DNA of 64,000 bases, from contig JAJEJC010000007.1 of the NCBI GenBank assembly GCA_022828105.1, positions 1 to 64,000 on the forward strand, read 5' to 3'. The translations under genes were made by a program, and so were the position numbers. Below, one piece after another: positions 7,799-21,471 of this stretch (positions are counted from its first letter, which is position 1; each line of letters begins with the position of its first letter). The notes beneath the pieces were generated by a model. That model was not told where the DNA came from, did no database searches, and saw only the letters and a list, made by a program, of their open reading frames with translations. This DNA is from Dehalococcoidia bacterium. GTDB taxonomy: Bacteria > Chloroflexota > Dehalococcoidia > Bin125.

Positions 7799-8155
7799 TG
7801 GTGGAGACGGGGGAGAATCGAACTCCCCGTCCAGACGGCCGTGCGCCGCTGCCTCTACGCGCGTAGCTCTCGCTTGTGTTGTCCCCGTCGGCCGGCGCGG
7901 GAGCCTACCGTTACCGACGGGTGAGCGGGACTGGTCTTAGCGCTGCGCTCCCGCGAGTCGCAGCGAGCAGCCGGATGTGTCGGCGCCGCATCCCCTCCGA
8001 CCCGGCAGCGGGTGAGGAGCGGCGTCACCGCGGTTAAGCGGCGAGGGCGAGTTCCCTGGATTCGCCAGTTAGGGAGTGTTGGCGCGGTTTCGCGAGCAAC
8101 GCCAGCTCGGCACGCAGCAACGAAACATCAACCGCTGTCGAACCCTTTCGTCCCC
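7799..8155 (-). ncRNA. ssrA: Transfer-messenger RNA (tmRNA)
   Basis: Rescues stalled ribosomes by acting as tRNA-Ala and then as a short mRNA. The 5' end GGGGACGAAAGGGTTCGACAG and the 3' end, with a T-arm (GGGGAGTTCGATTCTCCCC) and CGTCTCCACCA, form a 7-bp acceptor stem (one G-U pair), and the CCA is encoded. A tag reading frame runs from a GCG resume codon (8091-8093) to TAA (8034-8036) and would give AKPRQHSLTGESRELALAA, whose end is the usual degradation signal. The resume codon is inferred from frame and position. smpB lies 145 bp upstream on the same strand. One-piece form, 357 nt. Confidence 0.95.
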
Positions 8156-16041: not shown

Positions 16042-16096
16042 GAGTTCGCTCGAAGTTCATCCCGCCTCACCCGGCTTGCGATGTACGCTCGGTCCT

Positions 16097-17653
16097 ATGC
16101 AGCATTCTCGCCTCGCCCTGCCGGGCATCGCACTTGCCATTCTGATCGCCCTCTGCTCCGTCGCCGCATTCGCAGCCTGCTCCTCGGATGAAGAATCGGC
16201 GCAGCCGCAACAGGCACAGACGACTCCTGCAGCCCAGGCCAATCAGAGCGCGGAGCACGAGCAATCTTCCGCCGCAAGCAGCACCGAGGAACCGCAGGCG
16301 CAAGCAAAGTCTGTCGAGACCGAGACGCAGTCGAGCGATGAGCAGGCAGAGTCGCAGGCGCAGCCCGAAACGGACCCGCAAAAAGAGCAAGCCGTCAGCG
16401 AGACCTCGGATCAGAGCCAACCGCAAGAAGCTGACCAGGCTGCGCAAGACACTGCCAGCGATCAGGCGCAGTCGGCAGACGAATCGGTCCAACAAGAGCA
16501 AGAGTTGGAGCAACAGCAGCAGGGCGAGCCGGCAGCCGAGCAACCGAGCGGACCGTCCGAGCGCGAACGACTGCAGATGCGGGCCGAGGAGATTGCCGCC
16601 CAGGCCACGGTGTCCGATCTCGTTGGCCTGAACGCCTGGCTGAACGGCGAAGAGACCACGATCGCGCTCGAACTGGCCAAGGGCAACATCGTCCTTGTTG
16701 ACTTCTGGACCTACTCCTGCATCAACTGTGTGCGCACGTTGCCGTTCCTCACTGCCTGGGACGAGAAGTACCGCGACCACGGACTCGTGATCATCGGCGT
16801 ACACACCCCCGAGTTCAAGTTCGAAGAACAGGTCGACAACGTCAGCAACGCGATCGCCGAGCACGACATCGAGTACCTGGTCGCGATGGACAACGACTAT
16901 CGCACCTGGCGAGTGCTGCAGGGGAGCCGCGGATTCTGGCCGCGCAAGTTCCTGATTGGACCGACACCCGACGGATCGCCGATGGGCGTGCGCTACGACC
17001 ACATCGGCGAAGGCGACTACGAAGAGACCGAGCATCAGATCCGGGCCGCGCTGGAAGCGATTGGCAGAGACCTCTCCGGCGTGCCTTTCGGCGTCGAAGT
17101 CGCAGTGCCGGATCGCTCCGATGTCGCACGCGGCGTCCAGACGCGCGAACTCTACGCCGGCTGGCGACGCAACACCGGCGGCGGCGGACCGTACGCGGGC
17201 CAGGAGGAGTACTTCCTCGCCGGCCTCGACGTCGAGCATCTCTATCGGGATGTCGACAGCGACGATCGCGTGCACAACCTCTGGTACGTGGAGGGGCTCT
17301 GGCGCGCCGAGTCGGAAGCGATTGTGCACGCCCGCACCACCAAGAATCTCGAGGATTACATGGCGCTGATCGTCCGCGCGCGGACGGTCAACGTGGTGCT
17401 CACCGTGGCCGAGGACGGCCAACCCTATGACGTGTTCGTCCAGTTCAACGACGACTGGGTCCAGCCGGGCTTCGCCGGCGAGCACATCCAGTGGGACGGC
17501 AGCGGACGCTCGTTCATTCGCGTGAACGAGAACGACCTGTATCGCCTGCTGTTCTTCGAAGACTTCACCGCGGGCGAGCTCAAGCTCAGCTCCAACTCCG
17601 ATCAGTTCCGCATTTTCGCCTTCACCTTCGGCTCCTACGTCGGCGGTGAGTAG
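16097..17653 (+). CDS. Thioredoxin-fold lipoprotein (redoxin domain, CxxC)
   Basis: Extracytoplasmic thiol-disulfide protein of about 518 aa. Signal peptide and lipobox FAAC (Cys28), then about 135 residues of Gln/Glu/Ser/Ala-rich linker. A thioredoxin domain follows: LVDFWTYSCINCVRTLPFL, with active site C208-I-N-C211, and GLVIIGVHTPEFKFE. The C-terminal region (about 320-518, YAGWRRNTGGGG, LEDYMALIVRARTVNVVL, LYRLLFF) resembles the beta domain attached to DipZ/thiol-disulfide isomerase-like redoxins. I start at the ATG directly before the signal peptide; an upstream TTG is possible. The next gene is a second thioredoxin-fold lipoprotein. Confidence 0.85.
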   Translation: MQHSRLALPGIALAILIALCSVAAFAACSSDEESAQPQQAQTTPAAQANQSAEHEQSSAASSTEEPQAQAKSVETETQSSDEQAESQAQPETDPQKEQAVSETSDQSQPQEADQAAQDTASDQAQSADESVQQEQELEQQQQGEPAAEQPSGPSERERLQMRAEEIAAQATVSDLVGLNAWLNGEETTIALELAKGNIVLVDFWTYSCINCVRTLPFLTAWDEKYRDHGLVIIGVHTPEFKFEEQVDNVSNAIAEHDIEYLVAMDNDYRTWRVLQGSRGFWPRKFLIGPTPDGSPMGVRYDHIGEGDYEETEHQIRAALEAIGRDLSGVPFGVEVAVPDRSDVARGVQTRELYAGWRRNTGGGGPYAGQEEYFLAGLDVEHLYRDVDSDDRVHNLWYVEGLWRAESEAIVHARTTKNLEDYMALIVRARTVNVVLTVAEDGQPYDVFVQFNDDWVQPGFAGEHIQWDGSGRSFIRVNENDLYRLLFFEDFTAGELKLSSNSDQFRIFAFTFGSYVGGE

Positions 17654-17703
17654 CGTTGAGCGATTGCCAGGTGTCCAGAGGGTTCCAGCGAGCGAGGATT
17701 TCC

Positions 17704-18921
17704 ATGCATCTCAAGCCACAGTGGGCGGTCGGCCGCGGGACGCTGGCGCTCGCATCACTCGCGACGGCAGCGCTGTTGGCGCTCGCCGCCTGTAGTTCCG
17801 GCTCCGACGAGCAGCAGCAGGCGCAGGCGGCTGCTGCGGCACAGCAGGCCGACGACCAGGACTCCGCCGAAACAACAGCGCGGGCATCGACTTCCAGCGG
17901 AGCGGCGGAGACCGAGCAGCAGCACCAGCCGCAGTCCGCTGCTCGGACGGATGAGGGTGATCAGGTCGATCAGGCCCAGCAGCAAGCTCAAGACACTGAC
18001 GAAGCTGAGCAGTCCGTAGCGCAGGACGACGGCGCTTCCGAGGCGGCCAGTCCGGGCGGTGCGATCGCGATCGTCCAGGAAGCGGCCTACGACGATCTCA
18101 GTCCGCGACTGCAACTGCTGCGCGACTCCGGCTACCCGGTCTACGTGAGCGGCGATTACATCGTCGCGCTCGGCACGCCCGATGTCTCTCCCGGCACGCA
18201 CCGCGTCTCCGTCGTGATCGAAGGTCCCTCCGGACTGGTCGAGTTCCCCGCGATCAGCGTGACGGTGACGCCTGATGTCGACGCCGGCGCGACACAGGAC
18301 GTCCTGGCCCGCTTCGCCCGCTTCCCCGATGGTGTGCGCGGCTTCCATGTCGCGACCATCGACTTCGCAAGCGCGGGACGCTGGAACCTGATTCTGCAGA
18401 TTCCCGCCGAAACGGGATTCGATTACGTCGGACTGGCGCTCGACGTACCCGAGGACACCTCCGCGCCGTCCGTCGGCGACGCCGCCCCGGCCTCGGCCAG
18501 CCGCACGCTGCTCGACGTGGCCAACATCGCCGACCTGTCGACCGGCGAGACTCCTGACCCTGGTCTCTATCTGATCTCGGTCTCCGACGCGCTCCAGGAC
18601 GGCAGGCCGTTCGTCGTGGTCTTCGCCTCGCCCGGTTTCTGCACCAACGCCTTCTGCGGTCCGCAGGCCGAGGTCCTCTCGGAGGTCCGCGAGCGGCACG
18701 GAGACGCCGCCAACTACATTCATATCGACCTGTACGAGAATCCCGAGCAGGTGCGTCTGGGCGAGGAGCCGATCGAGACGCCGATCCTCGAGGAGTGGGG
18801 ACTGCACACCGACGAGTGGACGTTCGTGGTCAACGCCGAGGGCGTCGTGGTCGCGCGCTTCGAGGCCTTCGCCCCCTTCGAGGAGGTCGAAGCGGCGCTG
18901 GCCGCGATCCTCGATAGCTAA
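17704..18921 (+). CDS. Thioredoxin-fold lipoprotein with CTNAFC motif
   Basis: 405-aa predicted lipoprotein: signal with LAAC (Cys30), a Gln/Ala/Glu-rich linker to about 120, a middle beta-rich domain (YVSGDYIVALGTPDVSPGTHRVSVVI, about 160-260) and a C-terminal thioredoxin-like domain (PFVVVFASPGFCTNAFCGPQAEVLSEV...YIHIDLYENPEQ...EWGLHTDEWTFVVNAEG). The Cys pair is C313-x4-C318, not the classical CxxC. Likely a periplasmic or cell-surface thiol protein; substrate unknown. The ATG chosen starts the signal peptide. Its TAA overlaps the TAG of the convergent rhodanese gene (CTAA at 18918-18921). Confidence 0.8.
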   Translation: MHLKPQWAVGRGTLALASLATAALLALAACSSGSDEQQQAQAAAAAQQADDQDSAETTARASTSSGAAETEQQHQPQSAARTDEGDQVDQAQQQAQDTDEAEQSVAQDDGASEAASPGGAIAIVQEAAYDDLSPRLQLLRDSGYPVYVSGDYIVALGTPDVSPGTHRVSVVIEGPSGLVEFPAISVTVTPDVDAGATQDVLARFARFPDGVRGFHVATIDFASAGRWNLILQIPAETGFDYVGLALDVPEDTSAPSVGDAAPASASRTLLDVANIADLSTGETPDPGLYLISVSDALQDGRPFVVVFASPGFCTNAFCGPQAEVLSEVRERHGDAANYIHIDLYENPEQVRLGEEPIETPILEEWGLHTDEWTFVVNAEGVVVARFEAFAPFEEVEAALAAILDS

Positions 18922-19772
18922 TCTTCAGGCGTCTCCATCGGGTGCTCAAGCGCGTTGCCGTACTCGTGCCATGAGGCGTCGTAGTTGCGGCTCTGGTTGT
19001 ACCCGAGCAGTTGCAACAGCCAGTATCCGTGCGCCGCACGGATGCCGCCCTGTCAATAGGTCGTGACCGTCTTCTCCGGCGTGATGCCCAGATCGGCCAG
19101 CATTGCCCGCAACTCGGCCGGCGGCTTGAGCGTGCGCACCGGATTCTCCAGCGTGTCGAGCCACTCCAGATGCACCGCGCCGGGAATGCGGCCGCCGCGC
19201 TGGGTTCCGCGCTTGTTCGCGCCCGTCCACTCGCCATCCGAGCGCACGTCCCAGAAGACGTGGTTGTCGTCCTCGATCGCGGCGGGGATGTCGTCCAGCC
19301 GGCAAATCGAGTCGTCGTGCGGCGCCGCGGGCACGGGATACTCGACCACCTGCGGACGCAGGTTCTGACGCGAGAGTGGTCGGCCCTCGGCGTACCACTT
19401 GTCCAGGCCTCCGTGCAGGATCTTGAAGTTGGTGTGGCCGAATCGATCAAACGTCCACCACGTCCTCGCGGCGTAAAGCGAGCCCGAGCCGTCGTATCCG
19501 ACCACCGTGGTATCGGGCGTGATACCCAACCGGCCAACCAGTTGCGCCCACTGTGCCGGATCCGACATTCCGTAGATCTGAGAGTCGTCGCGCGGATCCG
19601 TCTTCCAGTAGCGCGACAACGACCAGACTGCGCCGGGAATGTGCAGACGCAGATAGCCGTCCAGCAGGTCGCAGTCGAGTACGACCACATCGTCGTCGTC
19701 AATGTGATCCGCCAGCCAGTCGGTTTCGCAGATCAGTTCCGGCCGCGTCCAGCCGTCAGCGTTGCTCGTCAT
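18918..19772 (-). CDS. Rhodanese-type sulfurtransferase, predicted selenoprotein (Sec at residue 240)
   Basis: Two-domain rhodanese (thiosulfate/3-mercaptopyruvate sulfurtransferase family). The N-terminal domain shows VVVLDCDLLDGYLRLHIPGAVWSL and the C-terminal domain VFWDVRSDGEWTG...GRIPGAVHLEW. The catalytic loop, normally YCxGGxRA, reads Y-(TGA)-QGGIRA: TGA at 19053-19055 replaces the active-site Cys codon. Beyond it the frame stays open and conserved for 44 residues (AAHGYWLLQLLGY, NYDASWHEYGN) to TAG at 18918-18920, overlapping the neighbour's stop by four bases. A perfect 8-bp hairpin follows the TGA. A nonsense mutation is the alternative, but intact downstream homology and hairpin argue against it. 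284 aa with Sec. Confidence 0.88.
19025..19052 (-). promoter_or_regulatory. Candidate bacterial SECIS element of the rhodanese gene
   Basis: On the coding strand, 9 nt after the TGA begins a perfect inverted repeat ATCCGTGC-GGC-GCACGGAT (stem 19036-19043 with 19025-19032, loop 19033-19035). The apical loop starts 17 nt after the TGA and begins with G, within the usual spacing and loop-G preference of bacterial SECIS hairpins read by SelB. It lies within coding sequence, as expected in bacteria. Confidence 0.72.
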
Positions 19773-19840: not shown

Positions 19841-21331
19841 CTACTCCGACCCGCTGTCTTGAGATTGATCCTCGTCGCTGTCGCCATCGTCGTCGCTCGT
19901 CACTTCCTCTGGACCCGACTGGGGCTCGGTGTCCGCGCCGGCCGTGGGATCGTACTCGCCGCGCAGGTACTCGATGGCGACGAAGAGTTGGATGTCCTGT
20001 CCGGCCTCGAAACCGGTGTCGGGGATCGCGATCTCGATGTCGGGCGCGATCCCGACTCCCTCGACCGGCTCGCTGCCTGGCGTCAGGTAGCGCGCGATCG
20101 AGACGTACAGCACGCTGCCGTCGGAGAGCTGGCGGGGAATGTTGACGGTGCCCTTGCCGGTGGTCGTCGTGCCAATCAGGACCGCGCGTCCCTGATCGCG
20201 CAGCGCGGCGGCCATGACCTCGGCGCCCGAGGCGCTGCCTTCATTGATCAGCAACACCAACTGCAGTTCCAGCCCCGCCCCGCCGGCGCTGTCGCGGAAA
20301 ATCTCCTCATCGCCCTCGCGGTCGATCTGACGCAGCACGATGCCCTCGTCCATGAACTCGCCGGTCGTCTCGACCGTCGCGCGCAGCAGACCGCCGGGGT
20401 TGCCGCGTACATCGATGATCAAACTGTCCAGGCCCGCGTTACGAGCCGCGTCGAGCAGATCGATCAATTCGTTGCGAGTCCGCTCGGTGAACTGGGAGAT
20501 GAGGATGTAGCCGATATCGGCGACGGGTTGGCCGGAACGGTCGGTGATCGGCAGTGACTCCACGCTGGGCACCACGATCCGGTCGCGGGTCACGACGATC
20601 AGTTCTTCCTCGCCGTCGGCGTGACGGACCAGCAGCTCCACGTCGGTGCCGCGCGGTCCGCGAATGACCGCGACGGCCTGCTCCAGGCTCCAACCTTCGG
20701 TCGACTCGCCGTTGACCTCGAGGATGATGTCGCCCGACCGGATCCCGGACTGCTCGGCGGGCGATCCGTTGAAGGGACGGATGATGACAATCGCCCCCTC
20801 GACGATGTTGACCGTCGCGCCGATGCCCTCGAACGACCCGCCGATGTCCTCGCTGCCCAGTCGATAGCGTTCGGCGTCAATGAACACCGTGTGCTCGTCG
20901 CCAAGCGCATCAAGGATGCCGTTGATCGCCGCCTCGCGGGCGTCCAGCGCCTCGAACGTGGCAGGCTCGACAAACTCGCGGTCCAGGACCTCGATGATCT
21001 CGTCGAGCAGCGCGAATCGCGAGTCGCGGCCGGGCGCAGCTTCCGCCCGTTCTGCGGCCTGTTCTTCGCTGTCGACCGGTTGGACCGCCGCGGGAATGCC
21101 GGCTGGACCGGAGCCGTCGCGCGAACTGCGCAGGAACTGACCGTAATCGTCGCTGGCGTCGATCACCCGCATCACACCGATCCCGAGCGCAAACGCGGCC
21201 CCGATCATGACGAAGATCAGCAGCGCGATCGACCCTCGGCCGGGCCCGCCGCCGCTGCCCGTGGGCTCCGGAACGACTGCCCGCTGTCCACCATCGCCGC
21301 CGGCCGGCGGATCCCATCGCAGCTCCGACAT
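19841..21331 (-). CDS. S41 family C-terminal processing peptidase (CtpA-like)
   Basis: Membrane-anchored serine protease of about 496 aa. An N-terminal anchor helix (IALLIFVMIGAAFALGIGVM) is followed by a PDZ domain (GIGATVNIVEGAIVIIRPFNGSPAEQSGIRSGDIILEVNG) and the S41 domain: IIDVRGNPGGLL, LLINEGSASGAEVMAAALRDQGRAVLIG (nucleophile Ser near 363) and TTTTGKGTVN (general-base Lys near 390). A Glu/Asp/Ser-rich tail ends the protein. I chose the ATG at 21331 because GGAGG lies 4 nt before it, giving a short cytoplasmic Pro/Gly-rich head. Family members process or degrade envelope proteins. Confidence 0.93.
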   Translation of the reverse strand: MSELRWDPPAGGDGGQRAVVPEPTGSGGGPGRGSIALLIFVMIGAAFALGIGVMRVIDASDDYGQFLRSSRDGSGPAGIPAAVQPVDSEEQAAERAEAAPGRDSRFALLDEIIEVLDREFVEPATFEALDAREAAINGILDALGDEHTVFIDAERYRLGSEDIGGSFEGIGATVNIVEGAIVIIRPFNGSPAEQSGIRSGDIILEVNGESTEGWSLEQAVAVIRGPRGTDVELLVRHADGEEELIVVTRDRIVVPSVESLPITDRSGQPVADIGYILISQFTERTRNELIDLLDAARNAGLDSLIIDVRGNPGGLLRATVETTGEFMDEGIVLRQIDREGDEEIFRDSAGGAGLELQLVLLINEGSASGAEVMAAALRDQGRAVLIGTTTTGKGTVNIPRQLSDGSVLYVSIARYLTPGSEPVEGVGIAPDIEIAIPDTGFEAGQDIQLFVAIEYLRGEYDPTAGADTEPQSGPEEVTSDDDGDSDEDQSQDSGSE

Positions 21332-21471
21332 CAGCCTCCGCCTCTCAGCGCGCCGCGCATCGCGCAGGCGTGGACATACTGTCAACGCCGTTCGTTGTCT
21401 GTATCATCGCATCCAAATTACAGTGAGCCTCGTGGATCAACGATAGTCCCGGGAGTTCGAAGGAGACCGTC

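Follow-up and report, generated by a model that had tools for sequence, protein, structure and literature searches.

A predicted selenocysteine-containing two-domain rhodanese in a Dehalococcoidia bacterium and its relatives among the Chloroflexota

Organization of the locus and family of the encoded protein

The window, i.e., the whole stretch of 64,000 nucleotides that was analyzed, corresponds to positions 1 to 64000 of contig C9 in a 2.74-Mb, 10-contig, 97% complete assembly. On its minus strand, a rhodanese frame of 285 codons (284 residues and a stop) runs from an ATG at 19772 to 18918, and its sole interruption is a TGA at codon 240. The features of the locus are as follows.

18918..19772, minus strand: predicted selenocysteine (Sec)-containing two-domain rhodanese (sulfurtransferase), 284 aa with Sec240 (single open frame with one TGA; Pfam; predicted fold)
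19053..19055, minus strand: codon 240, a UGA in place of the catalytic cysteine codon, predicted to be read as Sec (180 aligned homologues)
19025..19043, minus strand: candidate bSECIS hairpin AUCCGUGC-GGC-GCACGGAU (covariation and fixed synonymous codons, both confined to Sec genes; published bSECIS model)
18921..19052, minus strand: 44 codons 3′ of the Sec codon, under purifying selection (first-, second- and third-position variation within the genus)
18918..18920, minus strand: TAG, the true stop of the frame, lying within the end of the convergent open reading frame (ORF) (sequence; the convergent ORF ends at 18921)
19841..21385, minus strand: upstream neighbor, S41 (carboxy-terminal) peptidase with a PDZ domain (Pfam Peptidase_S41, 152 bits)
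17656..18921, plus strand: convergent neighbor, predicted protein that has a CTNAFC motif and matches no Pfam family (Pfam scan)

These coordinates bear out the original prediction, made from the DNA letters alone, which described a frame ending early at TGA 19053-19055 on the codon for the catalytic cysteine, its continuation for 44 conserved residues to a TAG that overlaps the convergent gene by four bases, and a perfect 8-bp hairpin starting 9 nt past the TGA; the overlap covers 18918-18921, and the hairpin runs from 19043 down to 19025. It had also stated that ordinary gene calling would give a 239-aa protein, and mechanical ORF calling indeed yields just a 239-aa ORF (19053..19772).

Synteny of both neighbors is kept in the genus and in one genome of a related genus (G017), and no further. 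We found no pointer to the function of the rhodanese in its gene neighbors. The next ORF past the convergent one (16076-17653) has thioredoxin-like matches and a SCINC motif, so that the rhodanese gene adjoins genes for putative thiol-redox proteins. A tmRNA gene lies elsewhere in the window, at 7799-8155 on the minus strand (Rfam RF00023, 109 bits).

The protein matches the Pfam rhodanese family (PF00581) with 110.5 bits over two stretches. Its predicted fold has a mean pLDDT of 93.7, and the best structure match is the Thermus rhodanese 1uar (TM score of 0.88), in agreement with a two-domain rhodanese whose nucleophile lies in the C-terminal domain. The fold is alike over its full length in Thermus thermophilus 1uar and in CysA2, CysA3 and SseA of Mycobacterium (3hwi, 3aax and 3hzu; TM scores of 0.86 to 0.88), and these sulfurtransferases are 31 to 36% identical to the protein described here. 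They differ from it in having Cys for Sec and the loop CRI(G/A)ERSSH in place of UQGGIRAAH. Two two-domain rhodaneses of the same genome (C5:330509-331348 and C7:14143-14976) are 31 to 35% identical to it, but they are Cys paralogues without an in-frame TGA.

The active-site loop reads U-Q-G-G-I-R, with Sec240 first. The classical loop signatures are CRKGVT for thiosulfate sulfurtransferases and CG[S/T]GVT for mercaptopyruvate sulfurtransferases. UQGGIR does not fit the signature of the former. The 3-mercaptopyruvate sulfurtransferase SseA of E. coli (1urh) resembles our protein in its two rhodanese domains and its COG, but the match of the latter to the corresponding NCBIfam model (NF008557, 107.3 bits) is far under the cut-off of 250, and its loop lacks the CG[S/T]GVT motif.

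A Sec-containing "rhodanese-related sulfurtransferase" of COG2897 was predicted in 2005 from three Sargasso Sea sequences (PMC1088965), and eight Sec sequences assigned to cd01449 followed in 2008 from the Global Ocean Sampling data (PMC2398784); the original prediction was thus correct in stating that marine metagenomes had yielded rhodanese-like selenoproteins. Sec rhodaneses also appear in recent catalogues (PMC9312934, PMC13188914), one of which lists a "rhodanese-like form 4" with the motif UxxG (PMC13188914). This motif is present at the Sec residue of our protein (U240-Q-G-G243). Likened by motif and description, the COG2897 proteins and ours are both SseA-type two-domain rhodaneses with Sec for the catalytic Cys and UxxG, and they share a predicted bSECIS directly downstream and abundant Cys homologues; the COG2897 assignment of our protein is itself deduced from its SseA-type match. 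The published COG2897 cases are three plus eight metagenome sequences, whereas here the gene is clade-wide and sits in Chloroflexota genomes that are assembled and have their Sec machinery intact. It is therefore a very well supported further example of a rare, already predicted selenoprotein family and not a new kind. What is new here is the distribution in Chloroflexota, the repeated exchange of Sec and Cys, and the SECIS evidence. The earlier predictions were drawn from a few metagenome fragments, and assembled genomes across a wide bacterial group are now at hand.

Literature searches on selenoproteins of Chloroflexota or SAR202 turned up nothing specific to the Sec rhodanese gene. No model specific for a selenoprotein matched the protein in the NCBIfam scan, so automatic annotation probably truncates such genes.

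Conservation of the UGA codon and of the hairpin downstream

The codon aligned with the catalytic position was collected from 180 homologues; it is TGA in 76 and TGC or TGT in 104, and nothing else occurs. The original prediction expected Cys or Sec at residue 240 of homologues; Cys is found there in the Cys forms and in the solved rhodanese 1uar. Within the genus, TGA is kept in 14 of 15 genomes, that is, in every full-length ortholog found. The fifteenth genome, an 88% complete assembly (G012), has no ortholog, and the gene appears to be simply missing from that assembly; a fragment at a contig end was considered as the missing ortholog and rejected, as it belongs to a different Cys paralogue. 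The five other genomes of the family, at 60 to 79% identity, all have TGA too, as do dozens of more distant ones across the class. Downstream of the TGA, codons 11 to 40 have 3, 2 and 21 variable sites at positions 1, 2 and 3, respectively, within the genus, and the sequence past the interruption is thus under purifying selection. The gene is not a lone decayed copy, the case in which the original prediction was to fall, as its close relatives keep the TGA and an intact, conserved downstream part.

The hairpin consists of a perfect 8-bp stem and a 3-nt loop, GGC, with G as its first nucleotide; 9 nt separate the UGA from the stem, and the loop begins 17 nt after the UGA. The bacterial SECIS model quoted in PMC13188914 calls for an upper stem of 4 to 16 bp, a loop of 3 to 9 nt with a G as its first or second nucleotide, and a separation of 16 to 37 nt from the UGA, and the hairpin agrees with it in stem, loop, G and distance. 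Taken alone, it is weak evidence and only mildly unusual, because 11 of the 1,571 TGAs in the window (0.7%) carry a hairpin of at least 8 bp fitting the bSECIS geometry, and because its folding energy is unexceptional (z-scores of −1.0 to −1.4). It is the comparison across genomes that lifts it above chance. Among non-redundant sequences, 49 of 58 Sec genes form all five inner pairs of the stem, versus 1 of 30 Cys homologues, the latter chosen at 38% identity or more. Offsets 14 and 28 pair as C-G in 41 Sec genes, as G-C in 8 and as A-T in 3. One homologue (L060) has the compensatory stem CGUUC-GGC-GAACG, and two others (L054 and L176) show a C-G to A-U change in the stem UACGUGC-GGC-GCACGUA. 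In Sec genes, codons 246 to 248 hardly ever depart from GCG GCG CAC, whereas Cys genes encode the same amino acids with freely varying codons, with entropies of 0.27, 0.14 and 0 bits in the former versus 1.87, 1.50 and 0.97 bits in the latter. As judged from these alignments, selection at the RNA level on the hairpin tracks the Sec codon.

Eight divergent TGA homologues (L183, L185, L186, L169, L170, L173, L174 and L177) carry hairpins of a quite different kind downstream of the UGA, which suggests that SECIS elements were replaced or arose anew inside one rhodanese family.

A sequencing error or a recent pseudogene, in which the TGA would be an artifact or a real stop and the downstream part would be dead, could account for the truncated 239-aa ORF obtained by standard gene calling. 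However, the same TGA occurs in approximately 70 separately assembled genomes, the variation downstream is mainly at third positions, and the hairpin covaries. Conservation of the TGA, selection past it and covariation of the hairpin refute this explanation, whose likelihood we consider to be vanishingly small.

Selenium machinery and reading of codon 240

The original prediction had made its reading depend on a selenium machinery in the same genome, and a search for selA, selB, selC and selD found all four genes. selB, whose product includes the C-terminal SECIS-binding part (350 bits), is on C9, away from the rhodanese locus; the tRNA-Sec gene selC (70 bits, anticodon TCA) is on C7; and selA (526 bits) and selD (353 bits) are both on C4. 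The SelD gene (L027, G000:C4:303510-304451) itself carries a TGA in frame where its catalytic site is encoded, in the motif CGGUGSK, and its product is probably a second selenoprotein.

Among the matches listed, selA is present in 65 of the 71 genomes with the TGA form versus 189 of the 322 others (Fisher's P of approximately 1e-8, a value that ignores kinship). Five of the six TGA-form genomes without selA have a tRNA-Sec match over the cut-off, and one of these five (G277) has three such matches, all close to the cut-off. Neither selA nor tRNA-Sec was found in the sixth, an 81% complete assembly (G028). selB was over the cut-off in the TGA genomes of one named Dehalococcoidia and of two other named Chloroflexi assemblies, and no selB match over the cut-off was found in two Cys-form genomes, a Chloroflexi MAG and a Chloroflexaceae (L062 and L066).

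A lineage-wide reassignment of TGA, for instance to Trp or Cys, in place of local recoding would likewise open the frame through codon 240. Nevertheless, four relatives in the genus (L031, L032, L034 and L036) end the same rhodanese gene with TGA, and the use of TGA as a true stop of this very gene means that the code is not reassigned. Moreover, the catalytic codon alone is TGA, and the genome has the Sec machinery. We therefore give a changed code hardly any chance. As far as sequence can show, the TGA is thus neither an error nor the mark of a pseudogene or of a reassigned code. The features by which a bacterial selenoprotein is recognized, namely, an in-frame UGA aligned with Cys in homologues, a bSECIS stem-loop downstream, and selA, selB, selC and selD in the genome, are found here, and, from the comparison with about 60 related genomes, it is very likely that the UGA at codon 240 is read as selenocysteine and that the gene encodes a Sec-decoded two-domain rhodanese.

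Predicted function and exchange of Sec and Cys

The best inference on function is a sulfane-sulfur (or selenium) transferase that would use a selenolate as its nucleophile. In the proposed mechanism, Sec-tRNA(Sec) delivered by SelB would decode the UGA at codon 240, with SelB recognizing the stem-loop directly downstream. The selenolate would then attack a sulfane-sulfur (or selenium) donor, e.g., thiosulfate, a persulfide or mercaptopyruvate; the active-site loop would carry the chalcogen as an Se-S(e) intermediate before its release to a thiol or another acceptor. Compared with Cys, Sec would provide a more reactive nucleophile and an easier recovery from over-oxidation. Considered by itself, the sulfur-transfer function is reasonably probable. 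The handling of persulfide or selenium, the role named in the original prediction, is accordingly putative.

The protein might instead serve selenium delivery, its loop carrying selenium and handing it to SelD. The Azotobacter rhodanese forms a 1:1 perselenide with selenium, and TST has been put forward as a supplier for selenophosphate synthesis (reviewed in PMC9369223). Yet in this genome the rhodanese gene lies apart from the sel genes, the matches listed include no TGA form for many genomes of the class that have selA, and a requirement for Sec in order to deliver selenium would be circular. Such a role seems quite improbable.

The main rival to a sulfur carrier is a selenoprotein acting mainly as a redox enzyme, a peroxide or persulfide reductase, in which an Se-S bond would link Sec to a partner cysteine, for example, Cys157. 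The codon for Cys157, a possible resolving cysteine, is at 19302-19304 on the minus strand. Cys157 is present in 35 of 58 Sec forms versus 3 of 94 Cys forms, and Cys34 in 33 of 58 versus 17 of 94. Furthermore, the majority of predicted selenoproteins have thiol-based oxidoreductases as homologues (PMC9312934). However, the enrichment is not significant after control for relatedness (for Cys157, independent pairs average 2.4 to 0; sign test, P of 0.25 to 1), and 23 of the 58 Sec forms lack Cys157. The association of Cys157 with Sec in these alignments is thus suggestive but not significant, and we regard a mainly redox role as unlikely, albeit less so than selenium delivery.

The history of residue 240 was traced on a tree of 108 rows from which columns 34, 157 and 240 had been masked. 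Counted irrespective of direction, there were at least 12 changes between Sec and Cys, 8 of them forced by well-supported branches, and residue 240 has therefore switched repeatedly. The nesting of the genus with named records on this tree places it in the Chloroflexota, most likely in the Dehalococcoidia. One scenario for this class of Chloroflexota is that the Sec rhodanese with its frozen SECIS core would be an old core gene that was repeatedly converted to the Cys form, while the Sec form, at first a sulfur carrier, would have become a selenenyl-sulfide redox enzyme by gaining Cys157 as a partner; we find this scenario doubtful, somewhat more so than the redox role itself. Natural exchanges of Sec and Cys between close relatives provide matched pairs for testing the benefit of selenium in sulfur transfer.
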